Shown here piece by piece: positions 36,483-50,294 of a stretch of DNA of 64,000 bases (the first letter of the stretch is position 1; each line of letters opens with the position of its first letter). Both the position numbers and the translations under genes were made by a program. The stretch spans positions 21,634 to 85,633 of the forward strand of contig NZ_CAHP01000026.1 in the NCBI RefSeq assembly GCF_000294655.1, in the 5' to 3' direction. The notes below the pieces were generated by a model, which was not told the DNA's origin, made no database searches, and was given only the letters and a program-made list of their open reading frames with translations. The stretch comes from Magnetospirillum molischianum DSM 120 (GTDB lineage Bacteria > Pseudomonadota > Alphaproteobacteria > Rhodospirillales > Magnetospirillaceae).

Positions 36483-37283
36483 ATGACAAAGCGCGCTCAT
36501 GTCATCGTCGTCGGTAATGAAAAGGGCGGTACCGGGAAATCAACCATTTCAATGCATCTGATTATGAGTCTTCTCGACCGGGGATTGTCGGTCGGCAGCA
36601 TTGATCTCGATGCGCGTCAGGCGACCCTGACCCGTTATATCCACAATCGCGCGGCTCGCGGCGATTGTGCGCTGCCTCTGCCTGACCATATCTCGGTGCC
36701 GTCGACCGACGATCGCAAGGCGGACGAGGCGCGGCTGCTCGATATCGTCAATCATTTCGCCAACACCCACGATGTCGTTGTGATCGATACGCCGGGCAGC
36801 GATCATTTCCTGTCGAGAATGGGACACTCCTTCGCCGATACGCTGGTGACGCCGCTGAACGACAGCCTGGTTGATCTCGATGTCCTTGGTCGAGTCGATC
36901 CCGCGACGATGAAAATTCTCCGCCCCAGCCATTACGCCGAAATGGTATGGGAGACCAAGAAAGCGCGGGCGATACGCGGCGAACGGTCGATGGTCGATTG
37001 GATCGTGCTGCGCAACCGCCTGTCCAACCTTGACGCCCGCAACAAGCGCGATGTGGAAAAGCTGTTGGCCGATCTGGCTCGCCGAGTCGGCTTTCGTGTC
37101 ATTCCCGGCCTGGGCGAGCGGGTGATTTACCGCTCGATGTTTCTCGAAGGGCTGACCCTGCTTGACCTGCGGCGCAAGATTACCGGGTTCGATCTGTCGA
37201 TGAGCCACGTCGCGGCTCGTCAGGAATTGCGCACCCTGGTCGATGCCATCGCCTTGCCGGTAGGGTCGGGAAGTGAGGTTTGA
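36483..37283 (+). CDS. mipZ: MipZ-like ParA-family ATPase (division-site positioning)
   Basis: A 266-residue P-loop ATPase with the deviant Walker A GNEKGGTGKST at residues 11-21, and the conserved DTPGSDH switch near 101. The N-terminal AHVIVVGNEKGG and the overall length match alphaproteobacterial MipZ, which forms a gradient from the cell poles and inhibits FtsZ to place the septum. No ParB gene is next to it, as is usual for mipZ loci. The gene has its own 183-base upstream region divergent from the flavoprotein. The function is inferred from family resemblance, since ParA and MinD relatives share the motif. Confidence 0.88.
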   Translation: MTKRAHVIVVGNEKGGTGKSTISMHLIMSLLDRGLSVGSIDLDARQATLTRYIHNRAARGDCALPLPDHISVPSTDDRKADEARLLDIVNHFANTHDVVVIDTPGSDHFLSRMGHSFADTLVTPLNDSLVDLDVLGRVDPATMKILRPSHYAEMVWETKKARAIRGERSMVDWIVLRNRLSNLDARNKRDVEKLLADLARRVGFRVIPGLGERVIYRSMFLEGLTLLDLRRKITGFDLSMSHVAARQELRTLVDAIALPVGSGSEV

Positions 37284-37974: not shown

Positions 37975-39990
37975 ATGCTGATCGTCGCTTCTTTGTCGGT
38001 CCTGGTGCTGCTGTCGGCTCTTGCCGTGGTGGCCGGTAGCCGCGAGATCACCCATCGGCTGGTCCATGCCGGTTGTGCCGCCGCAAGTCTGGGGCTGTTG
38101 GTCGCCGGGTTGACCCATCTGGGCATTGGTCCGGGCGGCAGTCCGTCGATTGTCTTGCCGCTGGGCCTGCCTTGGATGGCGGCGCATTTCCGTCTCGACA
38201 ATCTGTCGGCGCTGTTCATGGTGGTGGTCGATCTGGCCGCCGTCGCCGCTTCGATTTATGGCATCGGCTATTGCCGCCATCTGCCCGAGGTGCGGCGGGT
38301 GACGCCGTTCTTCCCGCTATTTCTGTTCGGGATGAACGCGGTTCTGCTGGCCGACGACGCCTTCATGTTTCTGGTGGCGTGGGAATTCATGTCGCTGGCG
38401 TCGTGGCTGATGGTGCTGTCCGATCATAAATCGGCGGAAAATCGGCATGCCGCCGTGATTTATCTGATCATGGCCGCGTTCGGCACCTTTTGCCTGTTGA
38501 CCAGTTTCGGTCTGATGGCCGGAGCGGGTGGAACCTATACCTTCGCGGCGATGCGTCAGGCCGAACTGGCGACGATTCCGGCCTTTCTGGTCGTATTGAC
38601 GGCGGTGCTGGGTGCCGGGTCGAAAGCCGGTCTGGTCCCGCTTCATGTCTGGTTGCCGCTGGCTCATCCGGCGGCCCCCAGCCATGTTTCCGCGCTGATG
38701 AGCGGAGTGATGACCAAGGTCGCGCTGTACGGCCTGATTCGCATTCTGTTCGACCTCCATGGCGACGTTCCGTGGGAGTGGGGCGCGGCATTGATGGTGA
38801 TCGGCGGAGCCAGCGCGGTGCTTGGCGTGCTTTACGCGCTGTTCCAGGACGATCTGAAGCGGCTGCTGGCCTATTCCACTGTCGAAAATGTCGGCGTCGC
38901 GGTGATCGGACTCGGGCTTGGCATTGCCTTCAAGGATGCAGGCGAACCGGCGCTGGCGGCGTTGGCCCTGGTCGGCGGGCTGTATCACATCGTTAATCAC
39001 TCGGTCTTCAAGACCCTGCTGTTCCTCGCCGCCGGGGCGGTGATCAGTGCCACCGGAGAACGCCGTCTGAGCGGGTTGGGCGGGCTGCTCAATCGGATGC
39101 CGTGGACTGGCACCGCCGCTTTGATCGGCGCGGCGGCGATCTCGGCTTTGCCGCCGTTGAATGGTTTCGTCTCGGAATGGCTGATCCTTCAAGCGCTGTT
39201 CAAAGGTCCGGGTCTGCCGCACTGGGCGATGAAATTCGGCGTGCCAGTGGTCGGCGCGATGCTGGCCCTGGCGGGGGCGCTGGCCGCCACTTGCTTTGTC
39301 CGCGCCTACGGGATCGCCTTCCTCGGGCGTCCGCGCTCGTTGGCCGCCGCGCGCGCCGATTTGCATCCGACCCCGGCCAGCATGCGTTGGACCATGGCGG
39401 CGCTGGCCCTGCTGTGCATCCTGCTCGGCGCGATTCCGGTGACGGTGACCGATGCATTGTCGGCGGTGGTCCAGCCGATGACCGGGCTTCATTTCGCGGT
39501 GTCGGCCGATCTGGGCTGGCCCTGGCTGTCGCCGGTCAGTTCGACCCGTGGGTCTTATTCGGGTACGATGTTGGTGATGGTGGGCACGGCGCTGTTCGCG
39601 ATTGCGGTGGTGCTGGCGCACGGGTTGGGCACCCGGCGGGTTCGCCGCGCCGACGCCTGGGATTGTGGTCACCGCGAGGACATTCCCGAAACCCAATATA
39701 CCGGCCAGAGCTTTTCGCAGCCGCTGCGCCGGGTGTTCGGCACGTCGGTCTTTCTGGCGCGTGAGACGGTCGAGATGCCCGAACCGGGAGAACGCAGTCC
39801 AGCGCGGCTTTCGGTGCGGATGATCGACCCGGTGTGGGTCTGGCTGTATGACCCGATCGCCCGTGCGGTCAATTTCATCGCCGACCGGGTGAACCGGATG
39901 CAGTTCCTGACGGTGCGGGGCTATCTGCTGATGATGTTCTCCACCCTGGTCTTCATGCTTCTGGTGGTGGCGTGGAGGCAGCAGCCATGA
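37975..39990 (+). CDS. hyfB: HyfB-like antiporter-type membrane subunit of an Ehr complex
   Basis: A 671-residue polytopic membrane protein of the NuoL/Mrp-antiporter family, closest to hydrogenase-4 subunit B. Visible family blocks are the transmembrane segments around LFMVVVDLAAVAASIYGIGYC, the conserved H/K-containing block LHVWLPLAHPAAPSHVSALMSG, and FQDDLKRLLAYSTVENVG. The C-terminal tail holds a cytoplasmic segment and a last helix. It should move ions or protons across the inner membrane, driven by the soluble arm. No ribosome site is evident at the ATG at 37975. The next gene overlaps its stop (ATGA). First gene of a six-gene operon. Confidence 0.9.
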   Translation: MLIVASLSVLVLLSALAVVAGSREITHRLVHAGCAAASLGLLVAGLTHLGIGPGGSPSIVLPLGLPWMAAHFRLDNLSALFMVVVDLAAVAASIYGIGYCRHLPEVRRVTPFFPLFLFGMNAVLLADDAFMFLVAWEFMSLASWLMVLSDHKSAENRHAAVIYLIMAAFGTFCLLTSFGLMAGAGGTYTFAAMRQAELATIPAFLVVLTAVLGAGSKAGLVPLHVWLPLAHPAAPSHVSALMSGVMTKVALYGLIRILFDLHGDVPWEWGAALMVIGGASAVLGVLYALFQDDLKRLLAYSTVENVGVAVIGLGLGIAFKDAGEPALAALALVGGLYHIVNHSVFKTLLFLAAGAVISATGERRLSGLGGLLNRMPWTGTAALIGAAAISALPPLNGFVSEWLILQALFKGPGLPHWAMKFGVPVVGAMLALAGALAATCFVRAYGIAFLGRPRSLAAARADLHPTPASMRWTMAALALLCILLGAIPVTVTDALSAVVQPMTGLHFAVSADLGWPWLSPVSSTRGSYSGTMLVMVGTALFAIAVVLAHGLGTRRVRRADAWDCGHREDIPETQYTGQSFSQPLRRVFGTSVFLARETVEMPEPGERSPARLSVRMIDPVWVWLYDPIARAVNFIADRVNRMQFLTVRGYLLMMFSTLVFMLLVVAWRQQP

Positions 39991-40934
39991 TCGAGATTTT
40001 GATCCAGGCGGCGCAGATCTTCCTGGTGGTGGCGCTGGCGCCACTCGTCACCGGCTGGGTGCGGCTGGTCAAGGCGCGGTTACAGGGGCGGATCGGAGCA
40101 TCGCCGTTCCAGCCCTATCGTGACCTCTACCGCCTTCTCCAACAGGAAGCGGTGGTGGCTCATTCGGCATCGCAGCTGTTCCGCGCCGCACCCTATGTCA
40201 CGTTTAGCGCGGTGTGGCTGGCCGCCGTCCTGATCCCGACCTTTACCACCGATCTGGTGCTGGCTCCGGCCGCCGATCTGATCGCCCTGGTGGCGCTGTT
40301 GGGAGTGGCGCGGTTCTGGACCGCGCTGGCCGGGATGGATGTCGGTACCGCCTTCGGCGGTCTGGGCGCATCACGCGAGATGCTGATCGCCTCGTTGGCC
40401 GAACCGGCAATGCTGATGGTGACCTTCTCGCTGTCGCTGCTATCGGGCAGCACCGCGCCGTCGCAGATCATCGCTTTCGTGCTGTCGGGCAGTGTCGGTA
40501 TCGAGGTGTCGATGGGGCTGGCCCTGGCGGCGCTGGTGATGGTGGCGGTGGCCGAGAACGGACGGATACCGATCGATAATCCCTCGACCCATCTGGAACT
40601 GACGATGGTGCACGAAGCGATGGTGCTGGAATATTCCGGTCGCCACCTCGCTTTGATGGAAGCGGCGGGGATGGTGCGTCTTACCCTGTTTCTGGCTCTG
40701 ATCGGCGGCTTGTTCGCCCCGTGGGGCATCGCCCAGGCTGGGGCGGGCGTGACGGCGATGGCGGTGGGGCTGGGGGCGTTCCTGGCCAAAAGCTTTGCCC
40801 TGGCCTCGGCATTGGCAGTGTTCGAGACCGGAATCGCCAAAATGCGGGTGTTCCGCTATGCCGATTTCCTGGGGGGCGCGTTGTTGCTGGGGCTGCTGGC
40901 GACGATCTTTCTGTATGTGTCGGAGGCGGTGTGA
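39987..40934 (+). CDS. hyfC: HyfC/NuoH-like membrane subunit of an Ehr complex
   Basis: A 315-residue membrane protein of the complex I subunit 1 (NuoH)/HyfC family, which connects the soluble arm to the antiporter modules. It begins MIEILIQAAQIFLVVALAPL and carries the charged loop ARLQGRIGASPFQPYRDLYRLLQ and the conserved NGRIPIDNPSTHLELTMVHEAMVLE block with the glutamates of the NuoH quinone/proton path. About eight hydrophobic segments. Starts at ATG 39987 overlapping hyfB, and its TGA overlaps the hyfE start. A GTG 15 bases upstream is less likely. Confidence 0.9.
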   Translation: MIEILIQAAQIFLVVALAPLVTGWVRLVKARLQGRIGASPFQPYRDLYRLLQQEAVVAHSASQLFRAAPYVTFSAVWLAAVLIPTFTTDLVLAPAADLIALVALLGVARFWTALAGMDVGTAFGGLGASREMLIASLAEPAMLMVTFSLSLLSGSTAPSQIIAFVLSGSVGIEVSMGLALAALVMVAVAENGRIPIDNPSTHLELTMVHEAMVLEYSGRHLALMEAAGMVRLTLFLALIGGLFAPWGIAQAGAGVTAMAVGLGAFLAKSFALASALAVFETGIAKMRVFRYADFLGGALLLGLLATIFLYVSEAV

Positions 40935-41602
40935 TGGGAGCAGGTCAGATCTCCTATGACGTCGCTCATCTGATCGGCGCCACCGTATTGATGGCCGGGC
41001 TGCAATTGCTGTATCAGCGTCGGCTGTTCGCGGTGATCAATACCTTTGCCTTTCAGGCGCTGGCGCTGGCGGCGGCGGCGGGGTGGCAGGCCCATGTCCA
41101 GAACGCGCCGCATCTGTACGTCACCGCCGGAATCTCTCTGGTGTTCAAGGCGATGATCGTGCCCGTCGCCTTGCACTGGCTGATCGAGAAGCTGGGCATT
41201 CACCGCAGTGTCGAGACCGCGATGTCGATCGGCTGGACGATGATGGCCGGGGTAGCGCTGGTGGCTCTGTCGATTCTGTTGGTGTTGCCGGTCACCGCCA
41301 ATGCGGCGGCGTTGACGCGCGAGAGTCTGGCTCTGGCAATGAGCGTGGTTCTGATCGGACTGCTGATGATGATCACGCGGCGTAACGCGGTGACTCAGGT
41401 GGTGGGCTTCATGGCTCTGGAGAACGGCCTGATCCTGGCGGCGGTGTCGGCCAAGGGGATGCCGCTGGTGGTGGAAATTTCAGTGGCGTTTTCGGTTCTG
41501 GTGGCAATGACCCTGTTCGGCATCTTCTTTTTCCGTATCCGCGAGCGCTTTGACACTCTGGATATCAACGATGTCGAAACCTATCGCGGGGACCGGCAAT
41601 GA
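40934..41602 (+). CDS. hyfE: HyfE-like membrane subunit of an Ehr complex
   Basis: A 222-residue polytopic membrane protein resembling hydrogenase-4 subunit E (related to NuoK in its core). It has six or more hydrophobic segments; the C-terminal part VVLIGLLMMITRRNAVTQVV and GFMALENGLILAAVSAKG fits the NuoK-like conserved block with a glutamate in the middle of a helix (MALENG). The ATG at 40934 overlaps the hyfC stop; a longer in-frame reading inside hyfC would be Gly/Arg-rich and not membrane-like. It ends overlapping the hyfF start by 4 bases. Confidence 0.88.
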   Translation: MGAGQISYDVAHLIGATVLMAGLQLLYQRRLFAVINTFAFQALALAAAAGWQAHVQNAPHLYVTAGISLVFKAMIVPVALHWLIEKLGIHRSVETAMSIGWTMMAGVALVALSILLVLPVTANAAALTRESLALAMSVVLIGLLMMITRRNAVTQVVGFMALENGLILAAVSAKGMPLVVEISVAFSVLVAMTLFGIFFFRIRERFDTLDINDVETYRGDRQ

Positions 41603-43089
41603 TCGACCGGCTGGCGGGCTTGCCCGGACTCGATAACCCGCTTTTGTGGATTCTGGCGCTGCCGCTGGGTGCCGCCGGATTCCTGGCGGTGATCCGCGAC
41701 TGGCGGGTGGCGTCGTGGGTCAACGTCGCGGTGTCGGGAACGACCTTTGTCGCCTCCCTGGTCTTGCTGCGGGTCCGCCCGGCACCGACCAAGCTGTTCT
41801 TTATCGATGACTTCAATGTCTATCTGGTGGTGCTGACCGCGTTCGTCGGTCTGACCACATCGATATTCTCGGCGGCCTATATCGCCCGTGAGAGCGAGGG
41901 CAACCGCCTGTCCGATCTGCATCTGCGCTTTTACCACGCGATGTATCAGGCGTTTCTGTTCACGATGCTGCTGGCGTTGTCGGCCAACAATACCGGGGTG
42001 ATGTGGGTGGCGGTCGAGGCGGCGACCTTGACCACGGTGCTGATGGTCAGCCTGTACCGCACCCGCGAGGCGATTGAGGCGGCGTGGAAGTATTTCATCC
42101 TCTGCTCGGTCGGAATCGGATTGGCTCTGTTCGGCACGATCCTGGTCTATCTGGCGGCACAGCCGGTGATGGGCGACGGGGCGGATTCGATGGCCTGGAC
42201 CGAAATGATGCGCCGGGCGGCGGAATTCCAACCCGATTTGCTGAATCTTGCCTTTGTGTTCGTGTTGGTCGGTTATGGCACCAAGGTTGGACTCGCCCCC
42301 TTGCATGCCTGGTTGCCCGATGCCCACGCCGAGGGGCCGACGCCGATTTCGGCGGTGCTGTCGGGTCTGTTGCTCAATGTCGCGCTTTACGCCCTGTTGC
42401 GCTTCAAGATGCTGCTTTCGGCCAACGGTCACACCCTGTCGCCCGGCCCGCTGCTGGTGGTGATGGGGCTATCGTCGCTGTTCCTGTCGGCCTTCATGCT
42501 GTACCGACGCGGCGACATCAAGCGGCTGTTCGCCTATTCCTCGATCGAGCATATGGGGCTGATCACCTTTGCCTTCGGGATGGGGGGGCCGCTGGCTAAT
42601 TTTGCCGGTCTTTTGCATATGATGATGCACTCGCTGACCAAATCGGCGATCTTTTTCGCGGTCGGCATCATTTCGCAGAACGAGGGCACCAAGCGCATTG
42701 CCGATATCCGGGGATTGACCGTTTCCCATCCAGTGCTGGGCTGGGGCTTTGTTCTGGCGGTGTTGGCGATAGCCGGTCTGCCGCCGATGGGCGTGTTCAT
42801 GAGCGAGTTCCTGGTGCTGGGCTCGACCTTCGCCCGCGAGCCGCTGCTGGCGCTGCCGCTGGCAATCGCGCTGCTGCTAGCATTCGGGGCTTTGATCAGC
42901 CGGTTGCAGATGATGGCATTCGGCGAGCCGCCGCCGCGATCGCCGGTCCAGAGCAGCGCTGGTCGAGTGTCGGGTATCCTGGCGCTGACGCCGCTGTGGC
43001 TGCACATGGCGCTGGTCCTGGTGGCCGGGCTGTATCTGCCCGCGCCGCTGGTGGCGTGGTTCCACACCGTCGCGAGGATGCTGGGATGA
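41599..43089 (+). CDS. hyfF: HyfF-like antiporter-type membrane subunit of an Ehr complex
   Basis: A 496-residue NuoN/NuoM/MrpD-type antiporter protein, closest to hydrogenase-4 subunit F. The conserved lysine region is GTKVGLAPLHAWLPDAHAEG, followed by TPISAVLSGLLLNVALY, and the HyfF signature FAYSSIEHMGLITFAFGMGG. The conserved glutamate in MWVAVEAATLTT is present, so the ion channel residues appear intact. Thirteen or so hydrophobic segments. Overlaps hyfE and hyfG by 4 bases each. The second antiporter-like module of the operon. Confidence 0.92.
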   Translation: MIDRLAGLPGLDNPLLWILALPLGAAGFLAVIRDWRVASWVNVAVSGTTFVASLVLLRVRPAPTKLFFIDDFNVYLVVLTAFVGLTTSIFSAAYIARESEGNRLSDLHLRFYHAMYQAFLFTMLLALSANNTGVMWVAVEAATLTTVLMVSLYRTREAIEAAWKYFILCSVGIGLALFGTILVYLAAQPVMGDGADSMAWTEMMRRAAEFQPDLLNLAFVFVLVGYGTKVGLAPLHAWLPDAHAEGPTPISAVLSGLLLNVALYALLRFKMLLSANGHTLSPGPLLVVMGLSSLFLSAFMLYRRGDIKRLFAYSSIEHMGLITFAFGMGGPLANFAGLLHMMMHSLTKSAIFFAVGIISQNEGTKRIADIRGLTVSHPVLGWGFVLAVLAIAGLPPMGVFMSEFLVLGSTFAREPLLALPLAIALLLAFGALISRLQMMAFGEPPPRSPVQSSAGRVSGILALTPLWLHMALVLVAGLYLPAPLVAWFHTVARMLG

Positions 43090-44606
43090 TCGGGCAAGAC
43101 TCGCTGGTGGCGTTTTTGGCGGAAGCCGAAACGGTGGAGGGCAGCCACCCCTATCCCCGCGTGCGTCTGGACCGTGTGGGCTGGCAGTCCCTGGTGGCCC
43201 GGCTGGCGGGGTCCGAGTGGTGCCTGATGGCGGAGTGGGGCGAGCAGGACGAGGTGCACGTCGCCCTGCGTGACGAACGCGAGGGCGATATCCGCATCGT
43301 CTCGCATCGCTGCGTTGACCGGCGCTTTGTCGCGATCGGGACGGTAAGGCCGGCGGCGATTCGGCTGGAGCGGGCGATCCGGGATCTGTGGGGGCTGGAG
43401 CCGGAGGGGCTGGATGATCGCCGCCCCTGGTTCGATCACGGTCGCTGGCCGTCGCGCCAGCCGCTGGCGGCGCGGCCCCGCGATCCGTCGCCCACGCCGT
43501 TTGCCTATCCGTTTCTGCCAGCGGAAGGTGAGGGGCTGCACCAGATTCCAGTCGGGCCGGTCCATGCCGGGGTGATCGAGCCGGGTCATTTCCGCTTTCA
43601 CGCCCAGGGCGAGACGGTGGTGCGGCTGGAAGCACGACTGGGCTATACCCACAAAGGGATCTCGGGGCTGGCGGCGGGGCGGACGGTCGAGGCGGTGGCA
43701 CGGCTGGCCGGGCGGATTTCTGGCGATTCCACCGTTGCCTATGCCCTGGCCTTTGCCCGTGCGGTCGAGGCCGCCACTGGGGCCGAGGTGCCGCGCCGGG
43801 CCGACTGGCTGCGCGCTCTGATGGCCGAAATGGAGCGGCTGTCTAATCATCTCATCGATATTGGCGGCATCTGCAACGATGCTGCGTTCGCGGTGATGCT
43901 GGCCCATATGTCGGTGTTGCGTGAACGCATCCTGGGGGTCAATCGGGCGCTGTTCGGCCATCGTCTCTTGATGGATCAGGTGGTTCCGGGCGGCGTTGTC
44001 GCCGACCTCCCGCCCGAAGGCTCCGAGACGATCAAGCAATTGCTGTACGAGTTGCACAAGGAAATCGAGCGCGCCCGCCAACTCTACGAGAACACGCCGT
44101 CGCTGTCCGACCGGACCCAGGGCACGGGCATTTTGCCTTCCGCCCTGGCCAATCGGTTCGGTGCGGGCGGAGTGGTCGGCCGCGCCTCGGGGCGTGGGCA
44201 TGATGCGCGGCGCGTGCCGGGCTATCCGCCCTACGAGATGCTCGACCTTGCGGTGCCGATGCTGCTGGAGGGCGACGTCAACGCCCGCGTGATGATCCGT
44301 TTCGCCGAGGCCGCCGAAAGCCTGCGCCTGATCAACCGCATTCTACTCGAATTGCCCGACGGTCCGGTGCGGGCCGACCTGCCGCGACGGGCAGGCGAGG
44401 GGATGGCGCTTGTCGAGAGCTTTCGCGGCGAGGTTCTGGTGTGGGGCCGGGTCGATGCCGAAGGGCGTGTTGTCCGCCTGCATGCCCATGATCCGTCCTG
44501 GTTCCAATGGCCGTTGTTGGAAGTGGCGATCAAGGGCAACATCGTTGCCGACTTCCCGCTGTGCAACAAATCGTTCAATTGTTCTTATTCGGGGCATGAC
44601 CAATGA
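43086..44606 (+). CDS. hyfG: HyfG/NuoCD-like large subunit lacking the [NiFe]-site cysteines
   Basis: A 506-residue fusion of a NuoC-like N-terminal domain (about 1-120) and a NuoD/hydrogenase large-subunit-like domain. In [NiFe] hydrogenases the first site is R-x-C-G-x-C; here it reads R206-L-A-G-R-I, so both cysteines are replaced (A208, I211). The second site (DPCxxC) is absent: the C-terminus reads FPLCNKSFNCSYSGHDQ, with cysteines at 493 and 499 spaced differently. It therefore should not bind a Ni-Fe cluster. The fold motifs GYTHKGISGLAAGRTVE and EMERLSNHLIDIGGI are kept. ATG at 43086 overlaps the hyfF stop. The redox partner is unknown. Confidence 0.9.
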   Translation: MIGQDSLVAFLAEAETVEGSHPYPRVRLDRVGWQSLVARLAGSEWCLMAEWGEQDEVHVALRDEREGDIRIVSHRCVDRRFVAIGTVRPAAIRLERAIRDLWGLEPEGLDDRRPWFDHGRWPSRQPLAARPRDPSPTPFAYPFLPAEGEGLHQIPVGPVHAGVIEPGHFRFHAQGETVVRLEARLGYTHKGISGLAAGRTVEAVARLAGRISGDSTVAYALAFARAVEAATGAEVPRRADWLRALMAEMERLSNHLIDIGGICNDAAFAVMLAHMSVLRERILGVNRALFGHRLLMDQVVPGGVVADLPPEGSETIKQLLYELHKEIERARQLYENTPSLSDRTQGTGILPSALANRFGAGGVVGRASGRGHDARRVPGYPPYEMLDLAVPMLLEGDVNARVMIRFAEAAESLRLINRILLELPDGPVRADLPRRAGEGMALVESFRGEVLVWGRVDAEGRVVRLHAHDPSWFQWPLLEVAIKGNIVADFPLCNKSFNCSYSGHDQ

Positions 44607-45139
44607 TTCCCCCGATCTCAAAGCTGTTGTTTCGTGCCCTGACCCGAGGACCGTACACCCGGCGCGGCGCGGTCTCTCCCGATCCCGATGGTGCGGCCGA
44701 GCTGGCGCGGGCGGTGGGCGACCGGGCGCGGCAAAAGCTGGGCCGCTCCCTGGCGATCCGCGAGGTCGATGCCGGATCGTGTAATGGCTGCGAATTGGAA
44801 ATTCACGCCGTCAACGGTCCGGTCTATGACCTGGAACGCTTTGGCATTCGCTTCGTCGCCAGCCCGCGCCATGCCGATGTGCTGCTGGTCACCGGGCCGG
44901 TCACGGCCAACATGGTTGAAGCTTTGCAACGGACGCACGAAGCGGTTCCGTCGCCGAAATGGGTGGTGGCCTTGGGCGATTGCGCTCGCGATGGCGGCTG
45001 CTTCGCCGGGTCGTATGCCGTGCTGGGTGGGGTGGCAGCGGTGCTGCCGGTCGATCTGCACATCCCCGGTTGCCCGCCCGAGCCGACGCGGATTCTATCC
45101 GGTCTGCTGGAACTGCTGGAGCGGGCGGCAAAAGGGTGA
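44603..45139 (+). CDS. hyfI: HyfI/NuoB-like small Fe-S subunit of an Ehr complex
   Basis: A 178-residue NuoB/HyfI-type protein. The proximal [4Fe-4S] ligands are intact: C60 and C63 in SCNGCE, C127 in GDC, and C157 in PGCPPEP; C133 is an additional cysteine. The N-terminal 45 residues are an Arg-rich extension. It overlaps the hyfG stop by 4 bases and ends the operon. So the cluster next to the large subunit is kept, whereas the [NiFe] site of the large subunit is lost. No ferredoxin-like subunit (HyfA/HyfH) or hydrogenase maturation genes were seen in this window. Confidence 0.92.
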   Translation: MIPPISKLLFRALTRGPYTRRGAVSPDPDGAAELARAVGDRARQKLGRSLAIREVDAGSCNGCELEIHAVNGPVYDLERFGIRFVASPRHADVLLVTGPVTANMVEALQRTHEAVPSPKWVVALGDCARDGGCFAGSYAVLGGVAAVLPVDLHIPGCPPEPTRILSGLLELLERAAKG

Positions 45140-49071: not shown

Positions 49072-49713
49072 TCACCCCATGAACGGGGCCATCAATCGGT
49101 TGAACAGGCCGGTTGGCCGGATTGGGTCGTCGCCGACGCAGAGGCACAGGCAGGCAGTATCGGAATCGGCGATAGGACGATAGAGGCGGTTGGCGTCCTC
49201 GACGGCAAAATCACCCGGTCGGTAATGGGTGGCCTCGTTGCGATATGCTCCCTGCAACACGACATTGACCTCGGTGACGGCATGGCGATGGCGCGGCGAT
49301 ACCACTCCGGCCTCCATCCGAATCAGTCTGGCCTGGGCGTGGCCGCAACTGACCAGGATCGCCTGGTCAATGCCGGGAGACATGCGCCGCCAGGGCAGGC
49401 TGGACGTATCGCCACCGCAATAGGCACCGATCGGGCCGGGCAGGGTGGAGGTCGCGCCACGAGCGGGTGCGCGGGGTATGGGGGGCGTGCGGTCGAGTCG
49501 GGCGAGTACGCTGGCCAGGGACTCTTCGGCCATCGGAGCCGCGGGCAAGGACTCAAGACGTGTGCCGCCCAGGGCTTCAAGCCGGGCAACCTCGGCCCGG
49601 CAGCGCGGGCAGAAGGCAAGGTGGGTGGCGACGGCCAGCGCCGTCGGCTCGTCCATCGCTCCGGCGGCATAGGCCGCCAGCAGCGCGTCGGAAGGGTGGA
49701 AGGAGGCGCTCAT
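49072..49713 (-). CDS. chrR: ChrR-type zinc anti-sigma factor with cupin domain
   Basis: A 213-residue protein of the ChrR family, which binds and inhibits the ECF sigma factor and releases it under singlet oxygen. The N-terminal zinc anti-sigma domain has THLAFCPRC (H-x3-C-x2-C) with an N-terminal histidine (FHPSD). The C-terminal cupin has H-R-H-x3-E (RHRHAVTEVN). In Rhodobacter ChrR a further His completes the cupin zinc site (from memory, just before the PVAD segment); here that region reads NRLYRPIAD, with no His. The stop of the sigma gene overlaps its start (ATGA). Confidence 0.9.
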   Translation of the reverse strand: MSASFHPSDALLAAYAAGAMDEPTALAVATHLAFCPRCRAEVARLEALGGTRLESLPAAPMAEESLASVLARLDRTPPIPRAPARGATSTLPGPIGAYCGGDTSSLPWRRMSPGIDQAILVSCGHAQARLIRMEAGVVSPRHRHAVTEVNVVLQGAYRNEATHYRPGDFAVEDANRLYRPIADSDTACLCLCVGDDPIRPTGLFNRLMAPFMG

Positions 49714-50294
49714 CGGCTTTCTCCCAATAGGGCCTTGATCCGCCCCATCGCCAATCTCATGCGGGATTTAACGGTTCCTAACGGCACATCCAGCCGGGTT
49801 GCGATCTCGGCATGCGGCACGTCCTCGAAAAAGGACAGAGCCACCACCCGCGCCTGATCCGGTGGCAAATGGGTCAGAGCGTCGCGGACCCTCTGTTCGC
49901 GTCGTCCGGTCTCTAATGCATCGTCGGCCGGTGGGGCCGGATCGACGATCAGTTCGGGGTCGTCCAGGTCGATCTCGGGCCGCCGTTCGTGGCGTAGGCG
50001 ATCGATCCTTAGATTGCGGGCAATGGAGAAAATCCAGGTTGCCGCCTTGGCCCGTTCGGGATCGAAATGCGTGGCCTTGCTCCATACCGCCAGCATCGCG
50101 TCTTGCGCCAGTTCCTCGGCCACCGAATCCTCGGTGCCCAGGCGGCGCAGATAGGATTTGATCCGGGGCGCGTAATAACGAAACAACTCGGCAAAGGCGT
50201 CCCGGTCGCGATTCCGTGCCACCGCCTGCAACCGGGCGGCCATGACCTGGGCTTGCGAGTCCGCTTCGGTCGAGACCTGTTCGCGCGAGTCCAT
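49710..50294 (-). CDS. rpoE: ECF RNA polymerase sigma factor, RpoE/ECF11-type
   Basis: A 194-residue extracytoplasmic-function sigma factor. Region 2 has RDRDAFAELFRYYAPRIKSYLRRLG and LAQDAMLAVWSKATHFDPERAKAATWIFSIARNLRID, and region 4 has VRDALTHLPPDQARVVALSFFEDVPHAEIATRLDVPLGTVKSRMRLAMGRIK in shorter pieces. Paired with chrR by a 4-base overlap, which is the ECF11 arrangement controlling singlet-oxygen responses in Rhodobacter. A GGGAGGATC ribosome site precedes the ATG. I looked for its own promoter (TGATCC-type) upstream and found none convincing. Confidence 0.94.
   Translation of the reverse strand: MDSREQVSTEADSQAQVMAARLQAVARNRDRDAFAELFRYYAPRIKSYLRRLGTEDSVAEELAQDAMLAVWSKATHFDPERAKAATWIFSIARNLRIDRLRHERRPEIDLDDPELIVDPAPPADDALETGRREQRVRDALTHLPPDQARVVALSFFEDVPHAEIATRLDVPLGTVKSRMRLAMGRIKALLGESR

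Follow-up and report, generated by a model that had tools for sequence, protein, structure and literature searches.

A stretch of 64,000 nucleotides from Magnetospirillum molischianum DSM 120 (contig NZ_CAHP01000026.1; the whole stretch is called the window here) carries six genes on its + strand, head to tail, at 37975-45139, which we designate hyqB-C-E-F-G-I. The first, hyqB (37975..39990), encodes a HyfB-like, antiporter-like membrane subunit of 671 amino acids. It is followed by hyqC (39987..40934; 315 amino acids, a HyfC/HycD-like membrane anchor of the NuoH family, PF00146), hyqE (40934..41602; a HyfE-like membrane subunit, 222 amino acids when read from the ATG at 40934), hyqF (41599..43089; 496 amino acids, HyfF-like, the second antiporter-like membrane subunit), hyqG (43086..44606; 506 amino acids, the HyfG/HycE-like and NuoCD-like large subunit, with a vacated [NiFe] site) and hyqI (44603..45139; 178 amino acids, the HyfI/HycG-like small subunit of the NuoB family, PF01058, with one predicted [4Fe-4S] cluster). 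Overlaps of 4 bases join B/C, E/F, F/G and G/I, and there is a 1-base overlap at C/E if E indeed starts at ATG 40934; this is the pattern of a translationally coupled operon. A preliminary description of the window, made from the DNA letters, had proposed a six-gene operon here of the energy-converting-hydrogenase-related (Ehr) or hydrogenase-4-like type, and the gene set, its order and the division into membrane and soluble modules are all borne out: Pfam and NCBIfam profiles assign the proteins to the NuoL/M-type, NuoH, HyfE, NuoCD and NuoB families.

HyqB scores 821.8 bits with NF005086, 'hydrogenase 4 subunit B' (cut-off 667), and is 36% identical to E. coli HyfB, while HyqF scores 824.2 bits with NF005043, 'hydrogenase 4 subunit F' (cut-off 533). 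HyqE stays under the cut-off of both of its profiles (NF008556, 83.4 bits against 136; PF00420, 22.8 against 26.1) and is 26% identical to HyfE. All six subunits are closer to E. coli Hyf/Hyc than to the complex I proteins of the same genome, which we read from a 19.9-kb stretch holding the complex I genes: HyqC gives 142 bits to HyfC and 49 to the NuoH-like protein, HyqG 197 to HycE and 117 to its complex I homolog, and HyqI 129 to HycG and 104 to the NuoB-like protein. In contrast to Hyf/Hyc, however, Hyq has neither the [NiFe] ligands nor the C-terminal extension of the large subunit, and its operon holds no counterparts of HyfA, HyfD, HyfH or HyfJ. The membrane and NuoB/CD modules are likewise homologous to respiratory complex I (Nuo), from which Hyq differs by the absence of an NADH module or NuoI in the operon and by the replacement of the quinone-site histidine and tyrosine. 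We take the latter to be His38 and Tyr87 of the 49-kDa subunit (T. thermophilus numbering); by alignment, these positions are I164 and G213 in HyqG. A separate NuoD is encoded in the same genome.

By sequence, the operon appears to match a known but poorly understood system, the 'endo-hydrogenase' Hyq (hyqBCEFGI) of Azorhizobium caulinodans. The likeness is judged from published descriptions. According to the accessible parts of three papers (PMC2650096, PMC2930871, PMC3357923), strain ORS571 has hyqRBCEFGI, whose six structural genes and their order are those found here. Its HyqG has 504 amino acids and, like that of the window, lacks both CxxC motifs; its cysteines 258, 491 and 497 match 263, 493 and 499 of the window protein in place. 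HyqI has a CxxC and two further cysteines in both, and the membrane part is complex I-like in both. The published HyqI positions are 55, 58, 112 and 152 (spacings of 54 and 40), against 60, 63, 127 and 157 (spacings of 64 and 30) in the window; 122 may have been meant in place of the published 112. No counterpart of hyqR was seen directly upstream of hyqB in the window. The same papers describe NifA-dependent expression, use the name endo-hydrogenase, link Hyq to H2 recycling in nitrogen fixers, and report that a hyq deletion doubles 21% more slowly on N2, a defect uncured by added H2. The discussion in PMC3357923, as far as available, acknowledges the absence of the CxxC motifs and describes a Ni,Fe site as 'uncertain, if not unlikely'; the same paper terms the three other HyqG cysteines completely conserved. 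Among the papers listed by our literature search, only these three on Azorhizobium deal with hyq. Hyq has been described since 2009, and what is new here is the evidence from distribution and from ferredoxin fusions. The label Ehr, which in the accessible text of PMC6349859 and PMC10284858 is used loosely for group-4 hydrogenase relatives that have no Ni,Fe ligands, applies to the operon by this definition. Thus the Ehr assignment of the preliminary description holds in the loose sense, but Hyq is the closer and more precise system.

Phmmer alignments of HyqG with HycE (7z0s_E) and MbhL (6cfw_L), together with a MAFFT alignment that includes HycE and HyfG of E. coli, put the four Ni,Fe-ligand positions at S212, S215, S500 and G503, none of which is a cysteine. 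The L1 motif RVCGICG of HycE has become RISGDST, and the L2 motif SLDPCYSC has become SFNCSYSG. The loss of ligands had been recognised correctly in the preliminary description, but the residues were misplaced: A208 and I211, named there as the L1 substitutes, lie four residues upstream of the true positions, and the C-terminal DPCxxC, said to be missing, has lost its cysteines but is replaced (S500, G503) within a conserved C-terminus. The loss is general. In the larger set, in which all rows were restored and 81 of 101 HyqG sequences are distinct, none of the 79 sequences covering each position has a ligand cysteine: 212 is always Ser, 503 always Gly, 215 is Ser, Ala or Thr and 500 is Ser, Thr or Ala. 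D214 is found in 79/79 and D265 in 81/81. (A smaller 45-row alignment omits L048, L049, L052, L055 and L056, which are cut, broken or near-copies, and sets L051 and L053 apart.) Eight wider relatives, from Rhizobium, Methylovirgula, Burkholderia, Paraburkholderia, Variovorax, Cupriavidus, Methylocalor and Rhodococcus, also have no cysteine at the four positions. In group-4 [NiFe] hydrogenases a C-terminal extension is cut off after nickel insertion; HyqG ends in HDQ, 3 residues past the last ligand position, where HycE has 32 more. We are therefore highly confident that Hyq is not a [NiFe] enzyme.

Three other cysteines, C263, C493 and C499, are present in the window's HyqG and in most of the larger set (75/81, 71/79 and 74/79, respectively). 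Their equivalents are all gone in the 4/4 betaproteobacterial HyqG proteins examined, hence a metal site made from them cannot be a family-wide feature. The AlphaFold model of HyqG is good overall (pLDDT 83.6) but drops below 50 at 149-173 and 483-506, the stretches lining the old site. Its best PDB match is HycE of formate hydrogenlyase (FHL; 7z0s_E, Z 39.7 over 478 residues), a fold match along the whole length; HycE and complex I 49-kDa chains tie at the top within about 1 Z unit, so that the search with the predicted model can confirm the superfamily level only. In a tree of 36 chosen rows, a branch (support 96/95) separates the 32 NiFe-less proteins from HycE/HyfG and NuoD. Because the outgroup (HycE, HyfG and two NuoD-type proteins) is small and long-branched, we read the tree as no more than consistent with a single origin.

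The HyqI cluster site and the pump residues, on the contrary, are kept. The four cluster cysteines of HyqI, already noted in the preliminary description, are C60, C63 and C127, each in 65/65 sequences, and C157, in 64/65. In the membrane subunits E137, K217 and K248 of HyqB occur in 64/64 rows and E401 in 63/64; E140, K229 and E403 of HyqF in 70/70; and E190, R193, D197, E204 and E210 of HyqC in 68/68 (the HyqI and membrane-subunit counts retain near-copies, some genomes having been reached twice). We take the Glu of TM5, the Lys of TM7 and the Glu or Lys of TM12 to be the functional positions of antiporter-like subunits, and these are matched in HyqB and HyqF. Near-invariance of both the HyqI cysteines and the pump residues suggests selection as a redox pump; Hyq thus looks like a maintained redox-coupled pump, not a decaying hydrogenase. 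All six genes were detected in 43/52 rows (the window and 51 loci). At loci L034, L051 and L055 HyqI is not recognisable although the downstream sequence continues, and the available stretch of L053 has HyqG and HyqI only, with no B, C, E or F.

Were Hyq a [NiFe] enzyme, HypD would be expected in the genomes that carry it. We searched two overlapping genome sets, which include drafts and metagenome bins, with HypD as the sole maturation gene tested. The first is an even draw of 387 genomes, at least 90% complete, of the window's class, which we took as Alphaproteobacteria (cut-offs: HyqG E <= 1e-100, HypD E <= 1e-60, NifH E <= 1e-105). Here 32 genomes have HyqG, 27 have HypD and 11 have both. 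G094 and G121 of this draw carry two HyqG copies each. No HypD over the cut-off was seen in 21 of the 32 HyqG genomes, and the same 21 show no NifH either; 12 of these 21 loci were retrieved, 11 with all six genes and one interrupted by a contig end. The second set consists of 50 Hyq genomes, that of the window plus 49 reached via the loci. The sets share G000, and G341 and G078 of the first are apparently the genomes of L034 and L036. HypD was found in 39 of these 50 and is absent from 11, of which 8 give a single partial match to PF00374 (within profile positions 1-67, at the HyqG gene) and 3 give none; 11/50 Hyq genomes therefore show neither HypD nor any [NiFe] large subunit other than the partial match of HyqG itself. 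The 11 include metagenome bins and two unusual loci (L051, without recognisable HyqI, and L053, with G and I only), as well as the Mesorhizobium sp. L-8-3 chromosome (L037, a complete genome by its title), M. qingshengii Jales19 (L035) and Rhizobium mesoamericanum STM3625 (L054); these three have the full set of six hyq genes. The absence of HypD from so many Hyq genomes indicates that Hyq needs no [NiFe] maturation.

The organism of the window does have HypD elsewhere. The preliminary description had seen no ferredoxin subunit or maturation gene in the window; the whole contig gives no Fer4_7 and no HypD match. A search of the genome, as it had proposed, returned 15 Fer4_7 matches and HypD at C1:112085-113152; a full-length [NiFe] large subunit with both CxxC motifs (C1:102719-104305) lies some 8 kb away. 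A third, short PF00374 match (27 bits) lies between the two, at C1:108129-108365. Three NifH genes over the cut-off are on contigs C20 and C23.

The relation to nitrogen fixation is real but partial. NifH was found in 13/387 genomes of the even draw, 7 of the 32 with Hyq and 6 of the 355 others (Fisher p = 1.7e-5, kinship uncorrected), and 25 of the 32 Hyq genomes show none. Among the 50 locus-derived genomes, a set skewed to Magnetospirillum relatives that mostly bear NifH, 28 have NifH over the cut-off, 5 have strong fragments or a near-miss and 17 have nothing strong. The accessible text of PMC2930871 says that hyq is generally missing from non-diazotrophs; this claim does not hold in the even draw. 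With 25 of 32 genomes lacking NifH, Hyq is mostly not tied to N2 fixation, contrary to the published view, and together with the 21 of 32 that lack HypD this makes it probable that its main role is something else. The distribution casts doubt on the published hydrogenase role. We also considered a link to RuBisCO, found in 8/32 Hyq genomes and 28/355 others (p = 0.005), and rejected it as a mild enrichment that explains nothing.

Direct control by NifA likewise found no support: in 0/45 rows is there a NifA box or a strict sigma-54 element upstream of hyqB (L014, L034 and L044 have fewer than 900 upstream bases, and L027 is invalid since its hyqB start is off the contig). In the window itself, neither TGT-N10-ACA nor a strict sigma-54 element occurs in the 900 bases upstream; one loose sigma-54-like match lies at -738, and loose matches occur in some other rows too. 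The positive control worked: at 3/3 nifH genes of this genome, one element or both were detected. Nif-linked control of the window's operon, if any, would be indirect or via a site invisible to a consensus scan. A word search of the NifA-regulon survey PMC4999443 returned none of hyf, hyq and hydrogenase. The FnrN-type box, whose consensus we take to be TTGAT-N4-ATCAA, was found neither in the window's 400 upstream bases (at most 2 mismatches) nor in 350 upstream bases of the other loci (at most 1 mismatch), in scans run without a positive control.

The operon has no electron-input subunit of the HyfA/HyfH, NuoI or NuoEFG type, and no electron-donor gene accompanies hyq among the neighbouring open reading frames (ORFs) of the compared loci, a survey whose ORF calls in GC-rich DNA went by length, in which most neighbours are unnamed and small genes could be overlooked. 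The sole widely common neighbour is a small helix-turn-helix (HTH) gene at 21/71 loci; in 20 of the 21 it shares the strand of the hyqB match and lies upstream of it by at most about 240 bases. Both of the two scanned are Pfam HTH_3. It is probably hyqR. No such gene was seen in the window.

A better indication of the partner comes from fused relatives. In Variovorax PBL-E5 a HyqI-type subunit of 249 amino acids bears an N-terminal 2x[4Fe-4S] domain (Pfam Fer4 plus Oxidored_q6). Burkholderia-type small subunits of 266 and 270 amino acids are fused likewise, the ferredoxin motif being read by eye, and a Caballeronia locus gives a full-length tblastn match to the Burkholderia type. The accompanying large subunits have no cysteine at the four ligand positions, as aligned for Variovorax and read by eye for two Burkholderia. 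A ferredoxin fusion in two sister lineages points to a bacterial-type ferredoxin as the natural partner for the cluster of HyqI, and in Hyq this ferredoxin would be soluble. On this comparison, ferredoxin is probably the low-potential partner of Hyq. Fused operons of this complex I/hydrogenase-like kind lie on plasmids: L126:5333-12761 (B. multivorans), L125:5333-12749 (B. cenocepacia) and L127:5296-12653 (Caballeronia). Plasmid 3 of Variovorax PBL-E5 holds two NiFe-less six-gene operons close together (L124:7074-14358 and L121:6624-13808), one with the fused small subunit and the other an ordinary hyq.

Taking these observations together, we propose that Hyq would be a six-subunit proton-pumping oxidoreductase of the ferredoxin:quinone type, of hydrogenase-4/formate hydrogenlyase-type ancestry, that has lost its [NiFe] centre; our confidence in this scheme as a whole is evenly balanced. 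A soluble 2[4Fe-4S] ferredoxin would dock at the place of HyfH/NuoI and trade electrons with the HyqI cluster. The second half-reaction would occur at the HyqG/HyqI cavity, most likely with quinone, where by alignment a polar pocket (E165, R210, S212-G213-D214 and D265) may replace the [NiFe] centre. Electron transfer would be coupled via HyqC/E to proton movement in HyqB/F. The reaction could be reversible: surplus low-potential electrons would pass to the quinone pool with energy saved, and in reverse the proton gradient would yield reduced ferredoxin, of use for N2 fixation where nif is present. The enrichment of NifH among Hyq genomes speaks for the proposal too.

Several points weigh against this proposal. 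Quinone as the other substrate is its weakest step, on which we lean slightly to the doubtful side: with I164 and G213 at the quinone site, and HyqC nearer to the hydrogenase type than to NuoH, it is unsupported by sequence. HypD is enriched together with Hyq (11/32 against 16/355, p = 1.1e-6). Further, the proposal leaves unexplained the hyq-dependent H2 uptake and evolution in A. caulinodans, seen even without hup/hyp (PMC3357923 and PMC2930871, accessible text), and the high H2 output of a nifK hup mutant at very low O2 (PMC3357923). According to Table 2 of the latter, a hyq deletion raises H2 release about 15-fold, and about 45-fold with hup also deleted; the published H2-release data fit a hydrogenase better than our mechanism.

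Several other explanations deserve consideration. In Pyrococcus MBS/Mbx, a ferredoxin-fed cluster serves the reduction of a soluble sulfur compound with ion pumping, and Hyq could similarly pass electrons from ferredoxin through the cluster to sulfur or another small molecule in the vacated pocket. HyqC, HyqG and HyqI are indeed all nearer to hydrogenase-type than to complex I-type subunits; chain 6u8y_L, listed as 'NADH dehydrogenase subunit D' and which we take to be MBS, matches HyqG at E 1.3e-28; and most alphaproteobacterial-type HyqG proteins have cysteines near the pocket. Those cysteines, however, are not retained family-wide, many Hyq-bearing organisms are presumably aerobes or microaerophiles, and seven annotated plasmid loci show a single sulfur gene, for a dimethylsulfone monooxygenase, which lies some 5 kb downstream at the Methylocalor locus. 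In our opinion this explanation is unlikely.

The published explanation, an H2:quinone oxidoreductase with an H2-activating site other than [NiFe], would have Hyq oxidise nitrogenase-made H2 at moderate O2 and make H2 under strict O2 limitation. Its strength is physiological: at 20 uM O2, H2 release was 12 in the wild type, 16 in hup-, 175 in hyq- and 540 in the double mutant, and it reached 56,600 in the nifK hup double mutant below 1 uM O2 (pmol per 1e9 cells per min, typical single experiments; PMC3357923, accessible part), while recycling persists in strains without the entire hup/hyp operon (PMC2930871, likewise). The enrichment of Hyq with both NifH and HypD agrees with it. On the other hand, the Ni,Fe ligands are absent in every sequence examined, the 'completely conserved' cysteines are lost in the betaproteobacterial proteins and each is variable in the larger set, NifH was not seen in most Hyq genomes of the even draw, and the accessible text of PMC2650096, PMC2930871 and PMC3357923 reports no purified enzyme. 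Since it requires a new type of H2 chemistry, we consider it quite improbable. That Hyq acts on H2 without nickel, Hyp maturation or any family-wide pocket cysteine, as a fourth biological way of H2 activation, appears to us very unlikely; if true, H2 activation would be carried by a complex I-like pump spread through aerobic bacteria.

It is also conceivable that Hyq serves ion or pH homeostasis, its redox side being secondary, and that stress by acid, fluoride or low O2 led to its recruitment. On the plasmids of B. cenocepacia and B. multivorans, the paralog with the ferredoxin fusion has crcB, an inorganic diphosphatase and DUF190 nearby, and in B. cenocepacia a chloride channel protein as well; the hyq genes of Methylovirgula adjoin an F-type ATPase operon; and Methylacidiphilum and Acidocella, which we take to be acid-loving, are among the Hyq-bearing organisms. 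But the fluoride linkage belongs to the fused paralog and not to hyq of the window, and the almost invariant cluster cysteines of HyqI imply that the redox side matters, so we hold this, too, to be rather improbable. Finally, an ordinary group-4 [NiFe] hydrogenase with merely misread ligands has practically no chance of being correct: some public records do name HyqG a 'nickel-dependent hydrogenase large subunit', but the alignments with HycE, HyfG and MbhL concur on the ligand loss and HypD is absent from many Hyq genomes, in agreement with the earlier statement that this is not an ordinary [NiFe] hydrogenase.

Some further observations concern the surroundings of these operons. In the window a MipZ-type ATPase (36483-37283) and then DUF6481 precede the operon, and CreA and, further on, a glycosyltransferase 9 follow it; the flanking ORFs are common to at most 3/51 loci. 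At 49075-50294 a sigma-70-family (ECF-like) factor adjoins a zinc-finger/cupin (ChrR-like) protein, a pair presumably of the kind with which phototrophs respond to singlet oxygen. HyqG relatives with 40-51% identity are found on plasmids of Cupriavidus, Burkholderia, Paraburkholderia, Variovorax, Rhodococcus and Methylocalor, and five such loci with annotation have all six genes each; the Rhodococcus order is I-B-C-E-F-G, and Methylocalor has a small additional ORF between F and G. The Burkholderia fused operons sit in what appears to be a fluoride-tolerance island, with the voltage-gated chloride channel gene in B. cenocepacia and, at a greater distance on the plasmid of B. multivorans, an enolase gene; in Caballeronia (L127) the operon, DUF190 and the channel were detected by tblastn. 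On plasmid pHY1 of Methylovirgula sp. HY1 (L123:1-14007) the adjoining ATPase operon is of the atpD-first kind.

Annotation of the family is inconsistent, as in Rhizobium johnstonii 3841 pRL11 (L116:3593-11052) and other plasmid matches. Subunits appear in public records as 'hydrogenase 4', 'NADH-quinone oxidoreductase' or 'formate hydrogenlyase', and HyqG as a nickel-dependent hydrogenase, as NADH-quinone oxidoreductase subunit C or, in some records, as 'hydrogenase expression protein HypE'. Surveys that count such names can overstate hydrogen metabolism. The evidence from distribution and fusions sets Hyq apart from nickel and HypD and, for the most part, from nitrogenase, and the distribution points to organisms in which Hyq would be free of both nitrogenase and [NiFe] enzymes, so that the published claim becomes directly testable.

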